From positions 1-40,391 of the forward strand of contig PMBG01000197.1 of NCBI GenBank assembly GCA_003153755.1: a stretch of DNA of 40,391 nt, written 5' to 3'. The position numbers and the translations under genes are program-made. Below, one piece after another: positions 4,127-30,408 of this stretch. Source of the DNA: Chloroflexota bacterium (GTDB lineage Bacteria; Chloroflexota; Limnocylindria; Limnocylindrales; CSP1-4). The notes beneath the pieces are model-generated. The model saw only the letters and a list, made by a program, of their open reading frames with translations, was not told the origin of the DNA and did no database searches. Position 1 is the stretch's first letter. The number at the start of each line of letters is the position of its first letter.

Positions 4127-4534
4127 ATGTCCGGGTTCAAAGCGTTCCTGCTCAAGACCAACGCCATGGCTCTCGCAGTCGGCGTGATCATCGGCGTTGC
4201 GATGGGCAATGTCGTCAACTCTCTCGTCAACGACCTCATCATGCCGCCCATCGGCTATGTGCTTGGGAACGTCGACTTCTCACAGTTGAAGATCGTGCTC
4301 AAGGCCGCCACGGGCAATCCCGTGGATCCCAAGACCGAGGTTGCGATCCGCTACGGCAACTTCATCAACCTCGTCATCGCTTTCGTCGTCGTCGCGCTTG
4401 TGGTCTATGTCGTCGCGGGCCTTCTGCTCCGTGAGAAGGAAGAGCCGAAGCCCGTTATGAAGGACTGCCCCTTCTGCAAGGAGTCCGTGCCGGCCGACGC
4501 GACCAAGTGCCGCGCCTGCACGAGCGCGATCTAG
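4127..4534 (+). CDS. mscL: Large-conductance mechanosensitive channel MscL with C-terminal zinc ribbon
   Basis: A 135-residue channel subunit. Residues about 1-45 hold the N-terminal amphipathic helix and the pore-lining TM1, with the conserved ALAVGVIIG and VNSLVNDLIMPPIG motifs. A periplasmic loop and TM2 (about 88-112) follow. In place of the usual charged C-terminal helix there is a short linker and CPFCKESVPADATKCRACTSAI, a four-cysteine zinc-ribbon pattern. MscL forms a pentameric pore that opens on membrane tension during osmotic downshock. I chose ATG 4127 because GAGGAG (4115-4120) sits six bases upstream; a GTG two codons earlier overlaps that site. The M24 gene follows 30 bases downstream in a likely operon. 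Confidence 0.93.
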   Translation: MSGFKAFLLKTNAMALAVGVIIGVAMGNVVNSLVNDLIMPPIGYVLGNVDFSQLKIVLKAATGNPVDPKTEVAIRYGNFINLVIAFVVVALVVYVVAGLLLREKEEPKPVMKDCPFCKESVPADATKCRACTSAI

Positions 4535-11174: not shown

Positions 11175-12443
11175 TTACCTCCTTGAGCCGTTCGCGCGGT
11201 CCACGTACGTCTGCGCCCTGGACAGCTGGGCCGACAACGCCGAGATCGTCTTGCTCATGCTATCGAGCGACTTGACCTTGAAGTTGTCGATCTCGTCGAT
11301 CGTGGCGTAGATGTTGTCGAAGGCCGTCTGCAGCTTTTGCAGATCGACCATGGACGAAGCCGCCTGCTCGCCGACCGCGGCCGACTGCTGTCGAAGCATC
11401 GCGGACGTGCTCTCGATCATGTTTGAAGTGGTGCTGTTGAGAGCCGTGATCTGATCCAGCACGAGCTTCTGATCGCCGAGCGCCTGAGCCACTATCACGG
11501 CCGTTCGTAGCGCCGAGATCGTGGTGGTGGTTGCCCTATCCACTCCTCGCATGAGTTCGTTGTTGTTGCTGCGGATCACGTCTATCGAGAGGTAGCCCTG
11601 CACGCTCACGGCCATCTGCGCGGTGAGGTCCTGAGCCTTCTGCCGGACGTAGAAGAGCACGTGGTCCTTGAGGATGCGCGCGCGATCCGGATCCGCGGCC
11701 TCCATCTTCTCGATGCGGCCGGACAGGAAGGCGTCGAGCTTCTGGGCCAGATAGAGATACTGGCGCAGCCGCTCCATCGTCTGCCACAGGTTGGCCTTTT
11801 CGGCCTCAAGGTCCGTGTTGTCCGCGGCCAGAGCTCTCTTGCCGCTCTCCAGGCCGGCGACGATGGCGTTGATGTGCCCCTGCGAGGACTGGTACTTCGA
11901 GAAGTAGGCCGCCAGCCGGTCACCGAACGGGATCATCCCGAGCAGCTTGCGCGTGCCGAAGAGATCACCCTGGTGCCCTGGATCCAGGGCTTCGATCTGG
12001 CGCCGAAGCTGTACCAGGTTGTCCGCGACGGCCACGGACCCGGCCGTGCCGCCCTTCTTCATGGAGCCGATCGGCCGGTTGAGGAGGCGCGACGACACCT
12101 GAGCGGAGGCCTTGATCTCTTCGCTGCCGAGGTTCCGAACGTCCGACATGCGCGCTTCGAACTTCGGATCCTTGGTATCCAGCTGCGAGATCGCCACGAC
12201 GTAGTCGGCGACCATGGCGTCGAGCTTGGCGACGGTGGACGGCTCGAGCTTGACGGTGCCGGCCGCTTGCGGCGGATCGATCATCGCGACCGCTTGCGGC
12301 GGGGTGAGGGCCAGTGTCGCGGTTCCGGGGGCGCCCTCTACGGATGCCGGCGCAGGGGATTCCTCGACGGCATCCGGCGCGGCCATCCCCGCCGGTTTCG
12401 CCGCCGAGCCGGCCGCTCTATCGAGATCGAACGAACTGCCCAT
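11175..12443 (-). CDS. Toxic anion resistance protein, TelA/KlaA family (copy 1)
   Basis: A 422-residue mostly helical protein. After a low-complexity Ala/Pro-rich start (about 1-60) comes the TelA domain with SRLLNRPIGSM, LVQLRRQIEALDPGHQGDL, MERLRQYLYLAQKLD, LFYVRQKAQDLTAQMAVSVQGYLSIDVIRSNN and GVDRATTTTISALRTAVIVAQAL. The family was named for tellurite resistance on plasmid RK2 and is widespread; its biochemical activity is unknown. ATG 12443 has GGAGGAGG nine bases upstream; ATG 12482 lies before that site. A homologous gene lies 114 bases upstream on the same strand. It converges with arsR. Confidence 0.9.
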   Translation of the reverse strand: MGSSFDLDRAAGSAAKPAGMAAPDAVEESPAPASVEGAPGTATLALTPPQAVAMIDPPQAAGTVKLEPSTVAKLDAMVADYVVAISQLDTKDPKFEARMSDVRNLGSEEIKASAQVSSRLLNRPIGSMKKGGTAGSVAVADNLVQLRRQIEALDPGHQGDLFGTRKLLGMIPFGDRLAAYFSKYQSSQGHINAIVAGLESGKRALAADNTDLEAEKANLWQTMERLRQYLYLAQKLDAFLSGRIEKMEAADPDRARILKDHVLFYVRQKAQDLTAQMAVSVQGYLSIDVIRSNNNELMRGVDRATTTTISALRTAVIVAQALGDQKLVLDQITALNSTTSNMIESTSAMLRQQSAAVGEQAASSMVDLQKLQTAFDNIYATIDEIDNFKVKSLDSMSKTISALSAQLSRAQTYVDRANGSRR

Positions 12444-12557: not shown

Positions 12558-13835
12558 CTACTGCAGTGAGAGACCGGACCCGCCATCGGCCGAATCGTCG
12601 CGAGTTCGCGAGCGTTCCAGGTACGCCTGAGCCTTCCCGATCTCCAGCGAAAGGGCGTCGATCGTCTTGCCCATGTTGTCGATCGCCTGGATCTTGAACG
12701 CGTCGATCTCGTCCATCGTGGCGTAGATGTTGTCGAAGGCCGCTTGGAGCTTCTGGACGTCCACGGTGGCCGAGGCCGCCTGCTCGTTGATCGCCACCGA
12801 TTGCTGGCGCAGCAGCACGGAGGTGCTCTCGATTAGGTTGGAGGTCGTCTCGTTGAGTGCGGTGATCTGGTCCAGCACCAGCTTCTGATCGGATAGGGCC
12901 TGAGCCACGATGACGGCTGTGCGCAGCGCCGAAATCGTGGTGGTCGTGGCGCGATCCACGCCCCGGATCAGCTCCAGGTTGTTCCGGCGGATCACATCGA
13001 GGGCCATGTAGCCCTGCACGCTCACCGCCAGCTGTGTCGTGAGGTCCTGCACCTTCTGCCGGACGTAGAAGAGCATGTCTTCCCGGAGAACCTTCGCCCG
13101 TTCGGGATCCGTGGTCTCAACCTGGGCGACTCGCGCGGCAAGAGCGGTATCGAGCTTCTGCGTCAGGTAGATGTACTGGCGCAGGCGCTCCATGATCGAC
13201 CACAGATTGGCCTTCTCCTGCTCGATGTCCGTGTTGTCTCGCACGAGAGAGTCCTGGCCGTGATTGAGCGCCGCGATGATCCCGTTGAGGTGGCTCTGGC
13301 TGGACTGGTATTTGCCGAAGTAGTCACGCAGCCGGTCGCCGAACGGCAGGAAACCAAACAGCTTCTTCTGGGAGAGCAGGTCACCCTGATGGGCCGGATC
13401 CAGGTCGTCGATCTGGCGGCGAAGCTGCACGAGGCTGCTCGACACCGCCGACGAGCCCGAGAGGCCGCCCTTCTGCATCGCCGACACCGGGCGCTCGAGG
13501 AGGCGCGAGGAAACCTGAGCCGAGGCTTTGATGTCGTCGTCGCCCATCTTGCGAATGTCGGCGACGCGCGACTCGAATCTGGGGTCGTGGATATCCAGCG
13601 TGGAAACGGCGTCCAGATAGCCGGAGATCATGCCGTCGAGCTTCTTCACCGTCTCTGCATCGAGCGTGACGGCCTCTTGTGCCTGGGCGGGCGCGATCAC
13701 GGCAACCGGGGCCGGCGGTGTCAGCGTCAGGCTGCCGGTACTCGTCGACGGCTCGTCCAGAACGGTGGTCACGGCCGTCGCGTTGCCTGCCGGGGCCGCC
13801 ACCGCGGCCTTGTCGCTTTTCCGGGACTCGCCCAT
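12558..13835 (-). CDS. Toxic anion resistance protein, TelA/KlaA family (copy 2)
   Basis: A 425-residue paralogue of the next gene. The same blocks appear in the same order: SRLLERPVSAMQKGG, LVQLRRQIDDLDPAHQGDL, FLPFGDRLRDYFGKYQSSQ, MERLRQYIYLTQKLD and GVDRATTTTISALRTAVIVAQAL. The two proteins are closely similar through the domain but differ at both ends, as expected for an old tandem duplication. ATG 13835 is chosen because GAGGAGG lies upstream; the open frame continues to 14642 but that part overlaps the opposite AraC gene and has no ribosome site. No tellurite or ter genes are seen nearby. Confidence 0.9.
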   Translation of the reverse strand: MGESRKSDKAAVAAPAGNATAVTTVLDEPSTSTGSLTLTPPAPVAVIAPAQAQEAVTLDAETVKKLDGMISGYLDAVSTLDIHDPRFESRVADIRKMGDDDIKASAQVSSRLLERPVSAMQKGGLSGSSAVSSSLVQLRRQIDDLDPAHQGDLLSQKKLFGFLPFGDRLRDYFGKYQSSQSHLNGIIAALNHGQDSLVRDNTDIEQEKANLWSIMERLRQYIYLTQKLDTALAARVAQVETTDPERAKVLREDMLFYVRQKVQDLTTQLAVSVQGYMALDVIRRNNLELIRGVDRATTTTISALRTAVIVAQALSDQKLVLDQITALNETTSNLIESTSVLLRQQSVAINEQAASATVDVQKLQAAFDNIYATMDEIDAFKIQAIDNMGKTIDALSLEIGKAQAYLERSRTRDDSADGGSGLSLQ

Positions 13836-13861
13836 GACTTCCTCCTCGGGGCTGCGGCGGT

Positions 13862-13887
13862 TGACCCGGCGCAGCTGACCCGGCGCA
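13862..13887 (-). promoter_or_regulatory. Direct repeat upstream of TelA copy 2
   Basis: Two exact copies of TGACCCGGCGCA (13862-13873 and 13876-13887), separated by GC, begin 27 bases upstream of the telA start. A pair of 12-base direct repeats 14 bases apart could be a tandem regulator site. No regulator can be named. Confidence 0.35.
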
Positions 13888-14065
13888 CAGCATGGCGCCT
13901 TACCAAGAATGGGACTTCCCGCGGATCGTGTTGGTTCGTTCGTGCACGCTTTCGGTTGTGCGGCGGGATGGGCGCGGGCATTCACGGTACGGACGGCACA
14001 GACCAGCGGCTGAGGTCCGCTGCGGGTGAGTTCGCCCTCGTGAGACACCCTGCGCGCCCGGCGGA

Positions 14066-14077
14066 TGAGGCGCCTCA
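14066..14077. promoter_or_regulatory. 12-bp palindrome before the AraC-type gene
   Basis: TGAGGCGCCTCA is a perfect palindrome ending 19 bases before the AraC-type start, in the divergent region shared with telA. It may be an operator or a short hairpin in the leader. Confidence 0.3.
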
Positions 14078-14096
14078 GACGGCGTAGTGTTCCGGC

Positions 14097-14567
14097 GTGA
14101 GCAGAGAAGCCGAGGACCTGAACCGGCGCCTGTTGCGAGCCCGCGACGCGATGGACCGAGCCTACGCCGAGCCGCTCGACGTCCGCGCGGTGGCCGCGGT
14201 GGCCTATGTCTCCGAGGCGCACTTCATCCGTACCTTCCGCGCCGTCTTCGGGGAGACACCGCACCGTTACCTGCAGCGTCGGCGGGTGGAGCGCTCGATG
14301 TTCCTGCTGCGCGAGACGGAGCGCAGCGTCACCGACATTTGTCTTGACGTGGGTTTCACGAGCCTGGGGACCTTCAGCCGCACGTTCAGGGAGATCGTCG
14401 GCGAGACGCCGTCGGGCTATCGAATGGGGCATGAGCCGATGGCCGCACCCCATTGTTTCCAGAAGGCGACGACGCGGCCGATGGTGGCCGCGGGGGCAAA
14501 GCGGCCGGGGGGATCGGCCACGCGATCGAGCAGTTTTGGAGAAGCCCCGGGGGCGGCGGCTCCATAG
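14097..14567 (+). CDS. AraC-type HTH transcriptional regulator, short form
   Basis: A 156-residue protein that is mainly the C-terminal AraC DNA-binding domain. The first HTH is LDVRAVAAVAYVSEAHFIRTFRAVFGETPHRYLQRRRVERS, the second is SVTDICLDVGFTSLGTFSRTFREIVGETPSGYR. No sensor domain precedes it; a disordered Ala-rich tail follows. Such short AraC proteins are often paired with VOC or glyoxalase-like genes, as here, where a VOC gene begins 46 bases downstream. The GTG start at 14097 has no strong ribosome site. It probably controls itself and the VOC gene (inference). Confidence 0.87.
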   Translation: MSREAEDLNRRLLRARDAMDRAYAEPLDVRAVAAVAYVSEAHFIRTFRAVFGETPHRYLQRRRVERSMFLLRETERSVTDICLDVGFTSLGTFSRTFREIVGETPSGYRMGHEPMAAPHCFQKATTRPMVAAGAKRPGGSATRSSSFGEAPGAAAP

Positions 14568-14613
14568 CATGAGGGTGGTCCGCATAGACCCTCGCACAAG
14601 GAGAAGCCAAGCG

Positions 14614-15042
14614 ATGATCAAGCTGAACGTCGCCTCCGTCATGGTCCTCGACCAGGAGGAGGCTCTCGACTTCTACGTCAACAAGCTCGGGCTGGAGGTG
14701 GCCCGGGACATCCATCAGGGTCCCTTCCGCTGGCTTACGGTCCGCGCCCCCGGCGACCCCGGCATCGAGATCTTCCTCCAGGAGCCCGGTCCACCGGTGC
14801 AGGATGAAGCCACCGCCGCGCAGCTCCGCGAGCTGATCGCCAAAGGCGCGATGGGCGGTCTCGTTATCCAGACCGACGACGCTCGGGGCCTGTACGAGAC
14901 CCTGAGGGCGCGCGGCGTCACCGATTTCACACAGGAACCCACCGACCACTTCTACGGCACCGACATGGGCGTGCGCGATCCCTTCGGCAACCCCATCCGG
15001 ATCCTCCAACCGGCCAGGACCGCTCACCAGGTCGTAGCCTGA
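14614..15042 (+). CDS. VOC superfamily (glyoxalase/bleomycin resistance-like) protein
   Basis: A 142-residue protein with paired beta-alpha-beta-beta-beta modules. MVLDQEEALDFYVNKLGLEVARD opens the first, and VRDPFGNPIRILQPA closes the second with the usual metal-site end. Candidate ligands include the Glu of IEIFLQEPG. VOC proteins bind a metal and act on diverse small molecules or bind drugs; the substrate is unknown here. ATG 14614 has AAGGAGA ten bases upstream. It follows the AraC-type gene and is probably in the same unit as the small gene downstream. Confidence 0.88.
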   Translation: MIKLNVASVMVLDQEEALDFYVNKLGLEVARDIHQGPFRWLTVRAPGDPGIEIFLQEPGPPVQDEATAAQLRELIAKGAMGGLVIQTDDARGLYETLRARGVTDFTQEPTDHFYGTDMGVRDPFGNPIRILQPARTAHQVVA

Positions 15043-24154: not shown

Positions 24155-25063
24155 TCATCCACGGTGCCGTGCAGGTGACGCCGGCGGTTCCGGCACTATG
24201 AGGATCGAGCACGGGGCGTGATAGAGAACCGCCCGAGCGACACTGCCGACGACGGGCCCGAGACCGCGATGGCCGTGCGCGCCCACGACCATGAGATCGG
24301 CATCCCAGTCCGCGGCGGCCTCGACAAGTCGATGCGCGGGGTTACCGTCCTCTACCATGCCCTCGGCGACGAGCCCGGCCTTCCCGAGCGCGGCAGCCGT
24401 ACTCTGAGACAGCGCTTTCTGGTGCTCGTGCACGCTGGCTGTGCCGGCGGCTTGCGCCGCCCGCGTCTCCGCCCCGCGCAGCCACGGATTCCATTGTGGG
24501 TCCACGTCCGCGACGCTCAGGACGCGTATCGGAGCGCCGTGAAGCGCCGACCAGCGGCGGACGGTGTCGGCTGCGGCCGCGGCGCTCCTGGAGCCGTCTT
24601 CGCCCAACAAGATGCGGGCGATGTGATCTCGACGGGCGACCAGGACCGGCACCTTGCTGTGGTCGACGACCTCGGCGGAAACGGAGCCCAGAACCGCCGA
24701 CTCGAACGGGCCGCGGCCCCGGTTGCCCACCACGACCAGGTCGGCCTTGAACTCGGACACTCGATCGAGCAGGGCCGTCGCGGCCCGGCCACGTACGACC
24801 TGCGTCTCGACCGTCAGGTCTGGCGCGGCGATTCTGCGGGCGACCTTGATGACGATGCGCCTCGCTTCGGCCGCCATCGCATCCTCTGTCTCCTGGATCA
24901 CGTCGGCTGCCTGCACTGCACCGGGCATGTCGAATACGGCGGCCGTGCCGGGATAGACCGTGACGACCTCGATGGAGCTGCCCACCGGCCAGGCCAGGTT
25001 CGCGACCAGTGACGCCGCTCGGTCCGATGATGTGGAACCGTCCACGGCGAGGAGTACCTTCAC
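24155..25063 (-). CDS. Tandem-domain universal stress protein (UspA family)
   Basis: A 302-residue protein with two Usp domains. Each begins with an ATP-binding strand and Asp (MKVLLAVDGSTSS; ILLGEDGSRSA) and ends with the nucleotide motif G-x2-G-x9-GS: GNRGRGPFESAVLGSVS in domain 1 and GAHGHRGLGPVVGSVA in domain 2. Both domains should bind ATP. Two-domain Usp proteins are common in hypoxia or dormancy regulons, such as the mycobacterial DosR set. GTG 25063 has GGAGGTG upstream. A repeated regulatory element (25101-25160) lies 37 bases before the start, overlapping the end of the neighbouring transporter gene. Confidence 0.93.
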   Translation of the reverse strand: MKVLLAVDGSTSSDRAASLVANLAWPVGSSIEVVTVYPGTAAVFDMPGAVQAADVIQETEDAMAAEARRIVIKVARRIAAPDLTVETQVVRGRAATALLDRVSEFKADLVVVGNRGRGPFESAVLGSVSAEVVDHSKVPVLVARRDHIARILLGEDGSRSAAAAADTVRRWSALHGAPIRVLSVADVDPQWNPWLRGAETRAAQAAGTASVHEHQKALSQSTAAALGKAGLVAEGMVEDGNPAHRLVEAAADWDADLMVVGAHGHRGLGPVVGSVARAVLYHAPCSILIVPEPPASPARHRG

Positions 25064-25100: not shown

Positions 25101-25160
25101 GACGCTCAGGCAGTGTGTTCGCCGTGCTCCGAGTCGTCATGACGGCCCGTCATGGGCACC
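25101..25160 (-). promoter_or_regulatory. Repeated stress-gene element, copy A (upstream of usp)
   Basis: On the minus strand this reads ATGACGGGCCGTCATGAC (core 25136-25153), then CGAACACACTGCC further on. It matches copy B (26340-26399, opposite orientation) at 49 of 60 positions by direct comparison. It lies 38-97 bases upstream of usp and overlaps the last coding bases of the CDF gene. Confidence 0.65.
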
Positions 25161-26173
25161 GCCCCGAGCGGCTGCTCGGTCGCGGGAGCGTGGCCGGCAA
25201 CCGCAACCCGGGTTCTCGTGGCGCGCGCGGCACGACGTGACCGGGCCTTCGGAACGGGCGTCAGGTAGACGTAATCCACCGATGGCCAACGCGCTCGCAG
25301 GGCGTTGGCAGCGCCGATGATCGCCTGCTCCACGTCCGGCACGGTCAACTCGTCGGCGAAGGTGACGTCGCCGTCGACGATCAAGCTCGATGGTCCGACC
25401 ACGACGGCGAACAGGTCGGGAACCGCGACGATCCCCGGTTGAGCGGCTACGACGCGGCGCATCTCGCGCAGGACGGAAACCGGGACGCCGCGGCCCGAGA
25501 GGAGGGCGCGGTTCACTCTGAGCAGCACGACCGACGCGACGAGGAGCACGAGCCCGATGAAGGCGCTCGCCGCCGTGTCGGGCGCAGCGCTTCCGGTCAG
25601 CTGGCTCGCGACCAGGCCCGCGGCAGCCGCGATGGCACCCAGCACGGCACACGCCCCGCCGATGACCACAGTCAAAGCAGCCGGGTCCGTGCTCCTCTGG
25701 GCTTGTGTGCGCAGCGAGATGCCTCGGAGCGCCGCCTCCTTGCGTACAGGATTCAGGGTGACGACAAGGGCGAATGCGTCCACGGCCACTGTTATAGCCA
25801 GGACGAAGTAGGCAATCGCGTAGTGGTCGACCGGCGAGGGCTGCACCACGGAATCGACGGCTCCCGCGAGCGCCAGCCCGGCGCCTCCGACAAAGATCCC
25901 CAGGGCCGCAAACAGCGACCAGAAGAACCTTTCGCGCCCGTAGCCCAATGGGTGGCTATCGTCGGGGGGACGAGCGCTGCTGAGCACGCCGATGAGGAGG
26001 AAGGCCACGACGGCCAGGTCGGCAGCATTGGCCGCGGTCTGGGCCCGCAGCCCGACCGAACCCGTCATCAAAGCCGCCGACCCGAGGGCCAGGGTCTCGA
26101 CGCCGTTCACGCCCAGCGAGAGGAACACGTTTCGCCGCGTGGTCCTGTCGTCCGGGATTACGGACGCGTTCAC
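25106..26173 (-). CDS. Cation diffusion facilitator family transporter with degenerate metal site
   Basis: A 355-residue membrane protein with about six helices and a cytoplasmic C-terminal domain. Family marks are HPLGYGRERFFWSLFAALGIFVGGAG and the C-terminal fold with VEQAIIGAANALRARWPSVDYVYLTP, close to the SLC30A9-like branch of CDF proteins. The usual HxxxD in TM2 is reduced to AxxxD in TAANAADLA, and the acidic motif expected in TM5 is replaced by STDPAALTVVIGG. Transport activity or ion choice may therefore differ. I prefer GTG 26173; TTG 26245 would add 24 atypical residues. The last 17 or so residues (MTGRHDDSEHGEHTA) are coded by repeat copy A. CDF proteins export divalent metals by proton exchange. 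Confidence 0.85.
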   Translation of the reverse strand: MNASVIPDDRTTRRNVFLSLGVNGVETLALGSAALMTGSVGLRAQTAANAADLAVVAFLLIGVLSSARPPDDSHPLGYGRERFFWSLFAALGIFVGGAGLALAGAVDSVVQPSPVDHYAIAYFVLAITVAVDAFALVVTLNPVRKEAALRGISLRTQAQRSTDPAALTVVIGGACAVLGAIAAAAGLVASQLTGSAAPDTAASAFIGLVLLVASVVLLRVNRALLSGRGVPVSVLREMRRVVAAQPGIVAVPDLFAVVVGPSSLIVDGDVTFADELTVPDVEQAIIGAANALRARWPSVDYVYLTPVPKARSRRAARATRTRVAVAGHAPATEQPLGAVPMTGRHDDSEHGEHTA

Positions 26174-26240
26174 GTTCCGCGCTCGTCCGACGCTCCGGAC
26201 GTGTGGCGTCGTCGTTCGGATGCATCCGCCATCATTCGCC

Positions 26241-26290
26241 GGCAAGTGTGCCGATGGCGTGCCGGGTCGTCATGACGCTCCGTCATCTGC
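26241..26290 (-). promoter_or_regulatory. Repeated stress-gene element, copy C (upstream of CDF)
   Basis: On the minus strand the core is ATGACGGAGCGTCATGAC (26269-26286), followed by GACCCGG and GGCACACTTGCC. It lies about 96 bases upstream of the preferred CDF start and has the same orientation relative to its gene as copies A, B and D. Confidence 0.6.
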
Positions 26291-26339
26291 GCGGGCGGAC
26301 TGACGTGGCCGTTGTGGCATGCGGGCCGCCACTCCGAGC

Positions 26340-26399
26340 GCTGCCTATGACGGGCCGTCATGACAGCTCGTCACCCGCCGAACACACTGCCCGGGCGTC
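26340..26399 (+). promoter_or_regulatory. Repeated stress-gene element, copy B (upstream of FMN reductase)
   Basis: The core ATGACGGGCCGTCATGAC at 26347-26364 is identical to copy A, followed by CGAACACACTGCC at 26379-26391. It lies about 137 bases upstream of the FMN reductase ATG, in the same sense as that gene. Confidence 0.65.
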
Positions 26400-26501
26400 C
26401 GGGAGTCGCGCGGGGCATCGCCGAACTCCACCCGCAGGACCGAGCGCAAACGTGGCCGGCGAGCCCAGCACCGGTCGAGCAGCAACGAAGAGAGTCTCGT
26501 C

Positions 26502-27101
26502 ATGTCGAAGCCCGTTCTCGCCATCGTGATCGGCAGCACCCGCCCGGGTCGCGTCGGGCCCAAGTTCGCGGCCTGGTTCCGTTCCCGGGCAATCGACCAG
26601 GGTGGCTTCGATGTGGAGCTTGTCGATCTGGCCACCCTCAAACTGCCATTCCTCGACGAACCGGCTCATCCGCGATTGCGCCAGTACGTCCACGAGCACA
26701 CCTTCAACTGGAGCCGGATCGTCGAGCACGCCGACGCCTTCGTCTTCGTCACGCCCGAGTACAACTTCGGCTACAGCGCGGCCCTCAAGAACGCGATCGA
26801 CTACCTCTCGCAGGAGTGGGCCGACAAGCCCGTCGGGTTCCTGAGCTACGGCGGCGTGGCCGCGGGAACCCGAGCGGTTCAGCAGCTCAAGCAGGTGGTA
26901 ACCGCCCTCAAGATGATCCCGATCGCCGAGTCTGTGAACATCCCGTTCTTCGGCCAGTTCATCGACGACTCCGGCACGGTGCGGCCCAACGACGCCATGA
27001 CCCGCTCGGCCGACGCAATGCTCGACGAACTCGCTCGGGTCACTGCCCTCGTTCGTCCAAAGGCGCTCGTAGCGAGCGAGACTGGGACCCTGCTGCGCTG
27101 A
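26502..27101 (+). CDS. NADPH-dependent FMN reductase family oxidoreductase
   Basis: A 199-residue flavodoxin-fold protein. The FMN phosphate loop is seen in IVIGSTRPGRVGPKFAAWF, and the second flavin motif in FVTPEYNFGYSAALKNAIDYL followed by FLSYGGVAAGTRAVQQL. These fit the NAD(P)H-dependent FMN reductase/azoreductase group (PF03358), soluble dimers that reduce flavins, quinones or chromate-like oxidants. ATG 26502 lies about 15 bases after a weak AACGAAGAGAG purine stretch. The VIT1-like gene follows 23 bases downstream, so they likely form an operon. Repeat element B precedes it, linking it to usp, CDF and the DksA-like gene. Confidence 0.92.
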   Translation: MSKPVLAIVIGSTRPGRVGPKFAAWFRSRAIDQGGFDVELVDLATLKLPFLDEPAHPRLRQYVHEHTFNWSRIVEHADAFVFVTPEYNFGYSAALKNAIDYLSQEWADKPVGFLSYGGVAAGTRAVQQLKQVVTALKMIPIAESVNIPFFGQFIDDSGTVRPNDAMTRSADAMLDELARVTALVRPKALVASETGTLLR

Positions 27102-27124
27102 CCAGACTGACCGGGTCGAGGGCT

Positions 27125-27850
27125 GTGGGCCGGCTGATTCGCAGGGTGCGGGCGGCGCCTGCAGGCCCTCATGAGACCCGCGGCTCGAGCGTCCTGCGCC
27201 CCACAGTGTTTGGCGTGACCGACGGACTCGTGGCCAATGTCTGCCTGATCATGGGCGTGGCCGGCGCATCGTCCGAAGCCGCTCACATCGTCCTGGCCGG
27301 GATCGCGGGTCTCGTAGCGGGCAGCTTCAGCATGGCCATGGGTGAGTACATCTCGGTCCGCTCGCAGCACGAGCTGCTCGACTATCAAATCGAGCTCGAG
27401 CGGACCCAGCTGCGCCAGACGCCCGACGAGGAGCGGGCGATCCTCGTGGAGATCTACCGATCTAGAGGTCTCTCCGGAATCGGCGCCGGCCGAGTCGTGG
27501 ACCGCCTTCTGGCCGATCCGAAGCAGGCGCTCGACACCTTCGTTCGCGACGAGATCGGCCTCTCTGCCGCCACGATGGGCTCGCCGATCACGGCCGCGCT
27601 GGGGTCGCTGCTTGCCTTTGCCCTGGGGGCTTCCGTACCGCTCATGCCCTATGTGGTCGTGTCCGGGGTGATGGCCCTCGTGGTCAGCATCGCGTGCACA
27701 CTGGGCGCCCTATTCCTGGTTGGGCTCGGTGTCAGCCGCCTCACTCACCGGCGACCGCTCTGGTCGGGTCTTCGGCAGGCGGCCCTGGGGCTTGTGGCGG
27801 CCGGCGTCACCTACGGCATCGGCATGCTCCTTGGCACTGCCGTTCACTGA
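27125..27850 (+). CDS. VIT1/CCC1 family iron/manganese transporter
   Basis: A 241-residue membrane protein. TM1 holds GVTDGLVANVCLIMGVAGASSE, TM2 ends in SFSMAMGEYISVRSQ, and between TM2 and TM3 is the acidic helical region ELERTQLRQTPDEERAILVEIYRSRGLS that binds metal in this family. Three further helices follow. VIT1/CCC1 proteins move Fe2+ or Mn2+ out of the cytoplasm with proton exchange. GTG 27125 is chosen because GAGGG precedes it and because the family starts shortly before TM1; the open frame extends far upstream in the coding shadow of the FMN reductase. The two genes probably share a promoter; the response regulator gene converges on it. Confidence 0.9.
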   Translation: MGRLIRRVRAAPAGPHETRGSSVLRPTVFGVTDGLVANVCLIMGVAGASSEAAHIVLAGIAGLVAGSFSMAMGEYISVRSQHELLDYQIELERTQLRQTPDEERAILVEIYRSRGLSGIGAGRVVDRLLADPKQALDTFVRDEIGLSAATMGSPITAALGSLLAFALGASVPLMPYVVVSGVMALVVSIACTLGALFLVGLGVSRLTHRRPLWSGLRQAALGLVAAGVTYGIGMLLGTAVH

Positions 27851-27870
27851 CCAGGTGTGCGGTGTCGCGT

Positions 27871-28578
27871 CTACTCGAGCGTGCGCTTGTCTGCCGCGGT
27901 GCCGTCGCCCCAGCCCTGGTTGGAGAAGGTCGGAATGAACCGATAGCCCATGCCGGAGACCGTGGCTATGAATCGCGGGTGCCGGTAGCCGTCCTGCAGC
28001 TTGAGCCGGAGACTCCGGATGTGGCGGTCCACGATGTTGCTCTCTGCGACGAAGTCCATGCCCCAGATCGTGTCGAGAATCTCCTCTCTCGTGACGACCT
28101 GTCCGCCCCGGCTCGCGAGGAGGTACAGCAGGCTCTGCTCGATGCCGCTCAGATGGATGACCGAGTCGCCGGCGCGCACCTGGCGGTTGAGGATGTCCAC
28201 CTCCATCTCGCCTAGCTTGATCGTGGGGACAATCGGTCGATTGGTCCCGGTCGCGCGGCGCGTGATCACGATGGACCGGGCCAGCAGCTCCTCCGGCGAG
28301 AACGGCACGGTCAGGATGTCGTCCACGCCCAGGTCGAATGCCTTGAGCTTCGTCTGCAGGTCGCCGCGGCGGGTAAGGCCCAGGACCGGTGTCACGCTCC
28401 TACGCAGCGTGTTCGAGGTGCCGAGCCGGCCGAGAAGCGCCGTGCTGTCATCGTGGTCCATGTCCACGATGGTCATGTGCGGCTGCCACGTCGCGAGGAT
28501 GTCCTCGGCTTCCGCGAGGTTGCTCGCGGCCCGGACAACGAAGAGACCGTGGTTCAGGGTCAACTCGATCAGGTCCAC
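27871..28578 (-). CDS. OmpR-type response regulator with atypical receiver
   Basis: The C-terminal domain is a clear OmpR/PhoB winged helix: VIHLSGIEQSLLYLLASRGGQVVTREEIL, NIVDRHIRSLRLKL, FIATVSGMGYRF. The N-terminal domain is receiver-like but altered. The acidic pair is His-Asp (VLHDRKL, coded upstream of the first normal start codon), the phospho-Asp region reads TIVDMDHDD, and the conserved Lys is Val in DDILTVPFSPEELLAR. GTG 28578 is the first standard start, but receiver homology continues in frame upstream; an ATC at 28650 has AGGAAGG about six bases before it and would complete the domain with 24 residues. No histidine kinase is adjacent. It sits within the stress cluster and could regulate it. 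Confidence 0.85.
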   Translation of the reverse strand: MDLIELTLNHGLFVVRAASNLAEAEDILATWQPHMTIVDMDHDDSTALLGRLGTSNTLRRSVTPVLGLTRRGDLQTKLKAFDLGVDDILTVPFSPEELLARSIVITRRATGTNRPIVPTIKLGEMEVDILNRQVRAGDSVIHLSGIEQSLLYLLASRGGQVVTREEILDTIWGMDFVAESNIVDRHIRSLRLKLQDGYRHPRFIATVSGMGYRFIPTFSNQGWGDGTAADKRTLE

Positions 28579-28846
28579 GACCAGCTTGCGATCGTGGAGA
28601 ACGAGCGCACGGTGCGCGTCGATGAGCCTAGGTTCTCCGTGGCGCTCGATCGCGGCCTTCCTTTCGACGAACGGACTGCCCCTCCGTTTGGGTGATTCTA
28701 GTCCCGGAATGGGGTTTCGGTCACTGAAGGTCGGCGACGACGGTCAATTTCGGATCATCGCGTCCGTAGCGTCTCCGCGATTCGGCAGAGCGCGTAGCTC
28801 CCGCGGTTGAATCGTTCGTGGCCGGCCCTCCTCGGGCACCACAGTT

Positions 28847-29275
28847 TCAGCTCGGCAGGGTGCGCGGCGCCGGCGCACCCGCAAACTCGCGCACACGGGC
28901 CAGCAACTGGGGTTCCGTCATCGGACCGCTCTTCTCCAGCCCCACGCGCCTTCTGGAACCACGCCCCTGGTCGCGGGTCCGGACCTGGTCGGCGAAATGC
29001 TCGACGACCTCGCCGTCGCCGATCAGCAAGACGTCGTCCTGCGCGGACACGGCCGACGCGACCTTATCGAAGAAGGTTCGCATGCGCTCGTCGCGATGTC
29101 CTTCGCCTGCCGGATGGTCTGCGGTCGGCGGGCGCCCCGTCGAGCGGTGACGGCCGGGGACCTGGGAGTCGATCTGCTCACGACTGACGAGCCCATCAGG
29201 ACCCCACCGAACTACGGTGGCGAACGAGGCTGACATCCAGACGCCGGTGGTGTGTTCTGTCGAAGCTGTGTTCAT
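28847..29275 (-). CDS. Stress-cluster protein of unknown function, possible release-factor-like fold
   Basis: A 142-residue protein. The segment DDVLLIGDGEVVEHFADQVRTRD and the ending EKSGPMTEPQLLARVREFAG resemble the small proteins related to the eRF1/Pelota middle domain that occur beside Usp and PRC-barrel genes, but I cannot fix the family. ATG 29236 (MSASFATVVRW) is an alternative start that removes 13 residues. The gene is third in a minus-strand unit after the DksA-like and PRC-barrel genes, 52 bases below the latter. A role in translation or stress is suggested by context only. Confidence 0.65.
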   Translation of the reverse strand: MNTASTEHTTGVWMSASFATVVRWGPDGLVSREQIDSQVPGRHRSTGRPPTADHPAGEGHRDERMRTFFDKVASAVSAQDDVLLIGDGEVVEHFADQVRTRDQGRGSRRRVGLEKSGPMTEPQLLARVREFAGAPAPRTLPS

Positions 29276-29327
29276 GTCTCGACTCTCTTGCTCCGCGACG
29301 GCTGTCGGTGCCCTCCGGAGCGCGCTC

Positions 29328-29840
29328 TCAATCCTGGTCTTTTGGCCTGCGGCCAGACGGCTGAGTGCCTTCGACTACCCTCTTGGCGCTCTCGTAGTCC
29401 GGCGTGACGGCCATGAATGGGGATATCCCGAAGGACTCCGGGTATCCGTAGTAGGGATAGAGGTTGGATACGTAGTCCAGCTTGGTCTCGACGAGCTCCG
29501 GGTCGTAGCGCGGAGCGCCGGCTACGTGCTCGCGCGTGTGGCCGATGTAGACGGCATCCGCGGTGGTGCGCGTGACCGCTTCGACCGGGATCAACGACTT
29601 GCTCTCGCCCAGGCCCAGAAAGCCGCCCGACCCCACTTCCATGAATCGCACTTTCCGTTCGGCTTCGTCGATCAGGAGGCCTTCGATCGTCCCCAGATCG
29701 TGACCGTCCTTGTCCTTGACCATCCGTCCGCGGATGTCCTCGTCGGAGCGCGAGACCGCCAGGTCGGTATCGCGCAGCCTGACGAGCCGTGGGACGTTCT
29801 CGGCGCCTTGCCGACTGACCGCGGTCTTCTCGGTGGTCAT
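29328..29840 (-). CDS. PRC-barrel domain protein
   Basis: A 170-residue soluble protein. The PRC-barrel fold is visible at about 25-105: DIRGRMVKDKDGHDLGTIEGLLIDEAERKVRFMEV, then SKSLIPVEAV. A Tyr-rich stretch YPYYGYPESFG and a Lys/Arg-rich tail follow. PRC barrels bind protein partners, as in the RimM ribosome maturation factor and the H subunit of the photosynthetic reaction centre; stand-alone forms like this are common in stress gene clusters. ATG 29840 lies only two bases past the stop of the DksA-like gene, with AGGAGG overlapping that stop region, so the two are translated in concert. Confidence 0.88.
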   Translation of the reverse strand: MTTEKTAVSRQGAENVPRLVRLRDTDLAVSRSDEDIRGRMVKDKDGHDLGTIEGLLIDEAERKVRFMEVGSGGFLGLGESKSLIPVEAVTRTTADAVYIGHTREHVAGAPRYDPELVETKLDYVSNLYPYYGYPESFGISPFMAVTPDYESAKRVVEGTQPSGRRPKDQD

Positions 29841-29842
29841 GG

Positions 29843-30205
29843 TCAGGACCTCCTGGATCCGTGAGCCTCGTGGTCCCTCTGCTCCTCGACGGTCCTCTCC
29901 GCAAGGGGTTCGGCCTCGAGTCGCGCGTCCGGGATGGGCAGGCCGCTCTCGATCGATATCCGGTAGGTGCCCTGCTCGATGCGCTTCTCGGCGCGCTCGA
30001 CCGCGGCGAGCTGCTCGCGGAGGCCGGCCGCGAGGGCGACCGAGACCGACTCGGAGTCGAGCGCGCTGGCGGCGTCCACGTACTCTCCGGTCTGCTGGCG
30101 CTGGAGAGACCCATCGGCGCTGATCTCGCCCACCTGCGTTGCCAGCAGGGCTTCAACTCGCGTTCGCTCGCGCGCAACGAGTTCACGGGCGCGTCGCTCG
30201 TTCAC
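29843..30205 (-). CDS. DksA/TraR-like protein lacking zinc-finger cysteines
   Basis: A 120-residue protein with the layout of short DksA/TraR proteins. A coiled coil (ARELVARERTRVEALLATQ ... LREQLAAVERAEKRIEQG) is followed by GTYRISIESGLPIPDARLEAEPLAERTVEEQ. In the family this last part reads GTYGxCxxCGxxIPxxRLxAxPxxxxCxxC; all four cysteines are replaced here. The protein may still insert its coiled coil into the RNA polymerase secondary channel, but without zinc. GTG 30205 is chosen for its perfect AGGAGGT site five bases upstream; the frame extends to 30391 but without support. Repeat element D lies in its leader. First gene of a three-gene unit. Confidence 0.83.
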   Translation of the reverse strand: MNERRARELVARERTRVEALLATQVGEISADGSLQRQQTGEYVDAASALDSESVSVALAAGLREQLAAVERAEKRIEQGTYRISIESGLPIPDARLEAEPLAERTVEEQRDHEAHGSRRS

Positions 30206-30354
30206 GATGACCTCCTGGTCCGGATCAATCGGGCTGCTCGCCCGGCGCCGGAGTGATTCCGCGAGTCGGCGAACGCCTCGATGGCGCTCCGGTGGTTCGA
30301 TGGGGTTCCGCGCTCCAGCTCGGAGCGTGGACCAGACAGACTGGCCCTTGCGTT

Positions 30355-30408
30355 CGCCTACCAGCGTGCGGCAGGCATCCGAGGTGGTCATTACGCTTCG
30401 TCATCCGG
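30355..30408 (-). promoter_or_regulatory. Repeated stress-gene element, copy D (upstream of DksA-like gene)
   Basis: The core on the minus strand is ATGACGAAGCGTAATGAC (30387-30404), the most diverged copy, followed by CTCGG and GCACGCTGG. It lies about 182 bases upstream of the DksA-like start, in the same sense as that gene. Confidence 0.5.

Follow-up and report, generated by a model that had tools for sequence, protein, structure and literature searches.

What do four copies of one near-palindromic element do, each standing before a different gene in a Chloroflexota genome? The window analyzed here is the whole 40,391-nucleotide stretch of contig PMBG01000197.1. An earlier note, made from its sequence, had read the copies (A to D, between positions 25101 and 30408) as the promoter or operator of an undescribed dormancy- or hypoxia-type regulon and had named a nearby atypical response regulator as the candidate regulator. 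As judged from its sequence, the element is a promoter of the sigma-70 type with a dyad in the class II activator position, and it belongs to a real, lineage-specific promoter-regulon, in which the site precedes several unlinked genes and is kept across species. The reading that we favor, with a probability of about 0.78, is that this shared promoter serves a stress regulon and is most likely worked by the orphan OmpR-type regulator encoded in the window. The host is a member of the Limnocylindria (Chloroflexota), apparently of family CSP1-4, with a genome of 3.3 Mb that is 69% complete; a sister family within the same order has genomes of 0.8 to 1.2 Mb, which fits the Limnocylindraceae, described beside CSP1-4 in PMC13212565.

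Layout of the element

The element is organized as a dyad, ATGACG-N3-CGTCAT, followed by GAC, 18 nt, and the hexamer CACACT, with copy D differing by CGTAAT and CACGCT. A pattern match in the window confirmed all four copies at the places given for them (six matches at up to three mismatches, versus 0.11 expected). Cores A (25136-25153, minus strand) and B (26347-26364, plus strand) match the 18-mer of the earlier note exactly, core C (26269-26286, minus strand) has two mismatches to it, and core D (30387-30404, minus strand), ATGACGAAGCGTAATGAC, has one mismatch to ATGACGNNNCGTCATGAC. The identity of 49 of 60 bases between A and B was exactly reproduced, and the two are ~80% alike across 80 nt; the claimed constancy of orientation relative to the downstream gene likewise holds for all four. 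The spacer had been described as variable, which is correct for its sequence (the four copies agree at 3 to 11 of 18 positions) but not for its length, which is a constant 18 nt from the core end to CACACT or CACGCT in every copy.

Promoter A (25112..25153, minus strand; 40.0 bits) precedes the universal stress gene and has a dyad at 25153-25139 (center 25146), a -35-like ATGACG at 25140-25135, a -10-like CACACT at 25117-25112, and a predicted +1 at ~25105. Promoter C (26245..26286, minus strand; 41.2 bits), before the cation-efflux gene, is arranged in the same way, with the dyad at 26286-26272 (center 26279), ATGACG at 26273-26268, CACACT at 26250-26245, and a predicted +1 at ~26238. Facing the other direction is promoter B (26347..26388, plus strand; 39.4 bits) of the FMN reductase-VIT1 pair, in which the dyad at 26347-26361 (center 26354) is overlapped by a -35-like ATGACA (26360-26365) and followed by a -10-like CACACT (26383-26388), with +1 predicted at ~26395. 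Promoter D (30363..30404, minus strand; 30.1 bits), that of the dksA-like/PRC-barrel pair, has the dyad ATGACGAAGCGTAAT at 30404-30390 (center 30397), a -35-like ATGACC at 30391-30386, a -10-like CACGCT at 30368-30363, and a predicted +1 at ~30356.

The -35-like ATGAC(G/A/C) is composed of the last five core bases and the next one, overlapping the right end of the dyad, and lies exactly 17 nt from the -10-like hexamer, (C/G)A(C/G)ACT. Of 81 sites scored elsewhere, 72 have the same 18-nt gap between core end and hexamer; presence of the hexamer was in part a selection criterion for that table, and an unselected count of its positions peaks sharply at the same single offset. With +1 taken ~7 nt past the hexamer, the dyad center falls near -41, and a dyad at this position over the -35, with a -10 at 17 nt and a predicted +1, has the geometry of a class II activator-dependent sigma-70 promoter. 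The half-sites mirror each other in 74 sites and tolerate the same substitution (ATGACG to ATTACG and CGTCAT to CGTAAT), as expected for the site of a symmetric dimer, and three dyads, with a usable -10 to either side, face in two directions. The core could be taken for the direct repeat ATGAC-N8-ATGAC, but this reading was rejected because the mirrored reading alone explains the conserved CGTC at positions 9 to 12.

Occurrence in the genome and the family

At no more than one mismatch, eight matches are listed in the window's own genome and none for the reversed-pattern control: the four in the window, two on contig C6 next to the second copy of the regulator gene, and one palindromic site on contig C86 that is read on both strands. 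Weaker candidates on contigs C18 and C150 come from a sequence model of 67 sites. Among 51 loci (628 kb) fetched via the regulator, there are 137 cores at up to two mismatches, versus 0 to 7 for ten shuffled patterns, and a weight-matrix scan of 96 loci (927 kb) returned 169 sites, versus 0 in the reversed sequence, with 136 of the 169 facing a gene start.

The upstream and orientation bias that the earlier note proposed to check is present. Eighty-one of 101 sites (80%) are intergenic, versus 15% of random positions. In 80 of 101 cases a gene start lies within 500 bp in the direction that the site faces, versus 26% under the null and 49% under the intergenic null. The distance from dyad center to start codon is mostly 60 to 210 nt, with gene starts being approximate, as they come from a home-made gene caller (that of the dksA-like gene was set by hand). 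Sites are kept across genera. Of the 33 family genomes sampled, 15 have the perfect core, versus 0 of 367 other Chloroflexota. Neither of the outcomes that would have spoken for scattered or mobile REP elements was found: the sites favor gene starts, and conservation is confined to the core and the -10.

The candidate regulator and its alternatives

The candidate regulator gene (27871..28578, minus strand) codes for a receiver domain (Pfam Response_reg, E 2e-8) and a Trans_reg_C winged helix (E 7e-23), which is the architecture of the OmpR/PhoB family, and since the receiver lacks the full phosphorylation pocket, the protein is an atypical member. Among homologues, the receiver retains its phosphoacceptor-type aspartate in 50/50 and its threonine in 48/50, the conserved lysine has given way to V, M, or T in all (0/50 retain it), and in most of them the acidic pair reads His-Asp. 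Loss of the lysine and of part of the acidic pocket makes switching by ordinary kinase phosphorylation doubtful, and to judge from these residues the regulator is probably not switched by it, or not in the usual fashion; no kinase gene is present among the neighbors adjoining the window copy. Its closest public relatives are in fen-soil Chloroflexota metagenome-assembled genomes, Chloroflexi bacterium CSP1-4, and Candidatus Limnocylindrales, a regulator 92% identical to it comes from PMIE01000099, and its solved structural relatives are RpaA, PhoP, KdpE, and PrrA; the AlphaFold model (pLDDT 66, pTM 0.47) was used for domain-level matches only. The open frame runs on upstream to ~28650, and the conserved N terminus extends past the first in-frame start, GTG 28578 (window 27871-28695, minus strand). 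A GGAGG-like sequence is present near 28685, yet the expected place has no ATG, GTG, or TTG, reflecting either an unusual start or a sequence error.

Association with the element supports the earlier choice of this regulator as the best candidate. Among 107 family genomes, the core is present in 38 of 39 with a regulator homologue (E≤1e-38) and in 24 of 68 without one (Fisher 2.6e-11, a guide only, because the genomes are related and the p-values overstate independence). For genomes at least 90% complete the counts are 18 of 18 and 7 of 19. A site lies within 250 bp of the regulator in 37 of 48 regulator loci; it stands immediately downstream in 32 of these and upstream in 11, the latter mostly divergent. 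In lists drawn up genome-wide and without reference to the regulator, a core lies no more than 200 bp from 17 of 26 regulator genes. In a genome of another family (G060) with tandem regulator homologues (51% and 43% identity), three of six dyads at up to one mismatch are within 4.6 kb around them (locus L194, positions 1066, 1360, and 5622); one dyad precedes the regulator and has TACACT just 9 nt away, a different geometry. Half-site variants were also compared with regulator clades in a 48-row tree, in which a CGTAAT lineage (L076, L114) is suggestive but not clean, and this was not used.

In the mechanism proposed, a dimeric activator would occupy ATGACG-N3-CGTCAT, centered near -41, and touch RNA polymerase. 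Both hexamers that the polymerase would read are poor: the -35 (ATGAC), which overlaps the dyad, and the -10, (C/G)A(C/G)ACT, at a distance of 17 nt from it. A single dyad flanked by a usable -10 in each direction could drive two divergent promoters. The activator would most likely be the orphan OmpR-type response regulator (27871-28578), binding head-to-head and probably not under the control of ordinary kinase phosphorylation. The identity of the regulator is well supported by association; its binding, activation, the start sites, and the signal are what we infer.

A precedent comes from Helicobacter pylori, whose orphan OmpR-type regulator HP1043 (HsrA) has a degenerate receiver, occupies a site immediately before the -10, and activates; head-to-head binding to two half-sites has been modeled for it (PMC5253667, PMC8345958). 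As with HP1043, the site described here is just upstream of the -10, replacing a good -35, and the candidate is also an orphan OmpR-type protein with a degenerate receiver; the HP1043 structure 2hqr is among its fold matches, at ~20% sequence identity. Unlike it, HP1043 recognizes TTTAAG-5 bp-TTTAAG, is the product of an essential gene, and has other targets, and its phosphorylation independence is established, whereas that of the window regulator is deduced from the receiver. By analogy, the window regulator may work like HP1043, with no family membership claimed.

Beyond the relatedness of the genomes, several observations weigh against this assignment. Cores are carried by 24 of the 68 genomes without a detected regulator, one of which (G026) is 91% complete and has seven core matches listed and no homologue detected. 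Between the window regulator and the site closest to it lie 1.5 kb, and the regulator seldom appears among its own targets; part of the association could therefore stem from co-inheritance in a gene island. OmpR-type regulators, moreover, usually bind direct repeats. Some of the regulator-less genomes with cores may reflect assembly gaps, and contig C35 of G026 begins within a yggT-like gene, a type often near the regulator.

The same promoter and regulon could instead be governed by another dimeric regulator of the CRP/FNR, IclR, or TetR type, with the response regulator being a frequent neighbor. The dyad with its 3-nt center is typical of many helix-turn-helix dimers, and both the genomes with sites and no detected response regulator and the lack of a site directly beside the window gene are in keeping with this. 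Such a regulator is nonetheless unlikely, given the adjacency of site and response regulator at 17 of 26 genes and its recurrence in another family. Of the other regulators encoded among the targets, IclR is the most common; it was tried as the activator and rejected, as it is not associated with the element (P = 0.17).

The favored reading also requires that the bound protein activates. A dyad overlapping the -35 could also let a bound repressor block polymerase and silence the genes until stress, but we consider this improbable, since both hexamers (ATGAC and CACACT) are poor, as in activator-dependent promoters, the center near -41 and the rigid spacing suit class II activation, and HP1043, the closest studied case, is an activator. 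It is very unlikely that an alternative sigma factor recognizes the 42-nt motif as a whole. Two conserved blocks at a fixed spacing would fit, and stress genes are often under such factors, but a sigma -35 element would be expected to show neither mirrored half-sites with matching tolerated changes nor single dyads that serve both directions, and the spacing of 17 nt resembles that of housekeeping promoters. A dispersed REP-like or mobile repeat, suggested by a near-palindromic, multicopy sequence and by the likeness of A and B over 80 nt, is scarcely credible, as the flanks are not conserved beyond the core and -10 (spacers match at 3 to 11 of 18), there are few copies per genome, placement follows intergenic regions and gene starts, and the core is conserved across genera yet found in none of the 367 other Chloroflexota.

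Targets, known systems, and neighboring genes

The regulon claim is upheld in that one type of site precedes many genes in several genomes. First genes behind sites code for DUF1269, YMGG glycine-zipper, GlsB/YeaQ-type, YggT, IclR, MscL, and CsbD proteins and PAS kinases, and further ones for PRC, Usp, FMN reductase, VIT1, YbaK-type, DksA-like, ice-binding, and heliorhodopsin proteins. Most of these families are missing from the top families of a background set from the same loci, which were chosen for the regulator, so that its count of response regulators is inflated. Together, such target families are a signature of general, envelope, and cold-osmotic stress, and the regulon looks like a general/envelope stress set, not specifically a hypoxia/DosR one. 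In genome G085, heliorhodopsin and an ice-binding protein are each behind an element (L130 3340-4176 and L132 3163-4161). On contig C86 of the window's own genome, a single dyad points toward two regulatory genes, one for an IclR-type regulator and one for a PAS histidine kinase that carries a receiver domain (L010 3100-4581 and 4943-5710), a possible second control layer.

The DosR/DevR regulon of Mycobacterium includes universal stress proteins and a nitroreductase-type flavoenzyme, and its regulator is of the NarL/LuxR type with a GGGACT-type palindromic box. The Usp and flavoenzyme genes around promoters A and B are alike, but the candidate is OmpR type with Trans_reg_C, not NarL/LuxR type, the dyad is ATGACG-N3-CGTCAT, and the wider targets are those of general and envelope stress, so the DosR-like hypoxia or dormancy regulon of the earlier note is not sustained. 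GlnR and CosR, both matched by the regulator in structure libraries, are orphans of the OmpR type whose action does not depend on classical phosphorylation; the candidate is likewise an atypical orphan, and differs in that GlnR and CosR control nitrogen and oxidative-stress regulons through other DNA sites in other phyla. The sigma-B and PhyR-EcfG responses have similar targets (CsbD, DUF1269, PRC, Usp, and GlsB-type) and use an alternative sigma factor, whereas the promoter here looks like one for the housekeeping sigma plus an activator.

Tentatively, and with the odds rather against it, this could be the family's main general stress response, run by multicopy, orphan, lysine-less OmpR-type regulators at one rigid, symmetric class II promoter and not by an alternative sigma, with a regulon that grows as the regulator is duplicated; G085 has 34 core matches (both strands counted) and three regulator-family genes at at least 69% identity. 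The literature searched, with subscription papers outside it, contained no described regulon, binding motif, or stress regulator for the class, and the 2026 genome study of the class has no mention of "regulon," "response regulator," or "promoter" (PMC13212565). The motif provides a handle for predicting stress genes, many of unknown function, in common uncultivated soil and sediment bacteria, makes one protein-DNA pair directly testable, and offers a natural test case of OmpR-type regulators reading an inverted instead of a direct repeat.

In the window, promoter A precedes a universal stress protein gene with two Usp stretches (24155..25063, minus strand; PF00582, E 8e-46), and is overlapped by the 3' end of the cation diffusion facilitator gene (25106..26173, minus strand; PF01545; start from the gene caller), which is the target of promoter C. 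Behind promoter B are an NADPH-dependent FMN reductase (26502..27101, plus strand; PF03358, E 8e-40) and a VIT1 family protein of the iron/manganese transporter type (27125..27850, plus strand; PF01988, E 2e-62). Promoter D serves a DksA/TraR-like zinc-finger protein (29843..30205, minus strand; PF01258, E 2e-5, with an NCBIfam yteA/DksA-like match below cut-off) and then a PRC-barrel protein (29328..29840, minus strand; PF05239, E 1.5e-10). The mechanical open reading frame of the dksA-like gene is overextended upstream, with its ATG at 30391 inside core D; the start is probably GTG 30205, leaving a leader of ~150 nt.

Elsewhere in the window, an MscL-like protein with a cysteine-rich ribbon at its C terminus, noted by eye, is encoded at 4127-4534 (plus strand); it has no element upstream here, and the mscL genes of relatives do stand behind one. 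Two adjacent TelA-type (toxic anion resistance) genes (11175-12443 and 12558-14642, minus strand) are 76% alike over 300 nt, with the Pfam test covering the 11175-12443 gene only, and the segment 15358-24036 (minus strand) codes for a single protein of 2,892 aa that contains GH94 domains and is of the cyclic beta-glucan synthase type.

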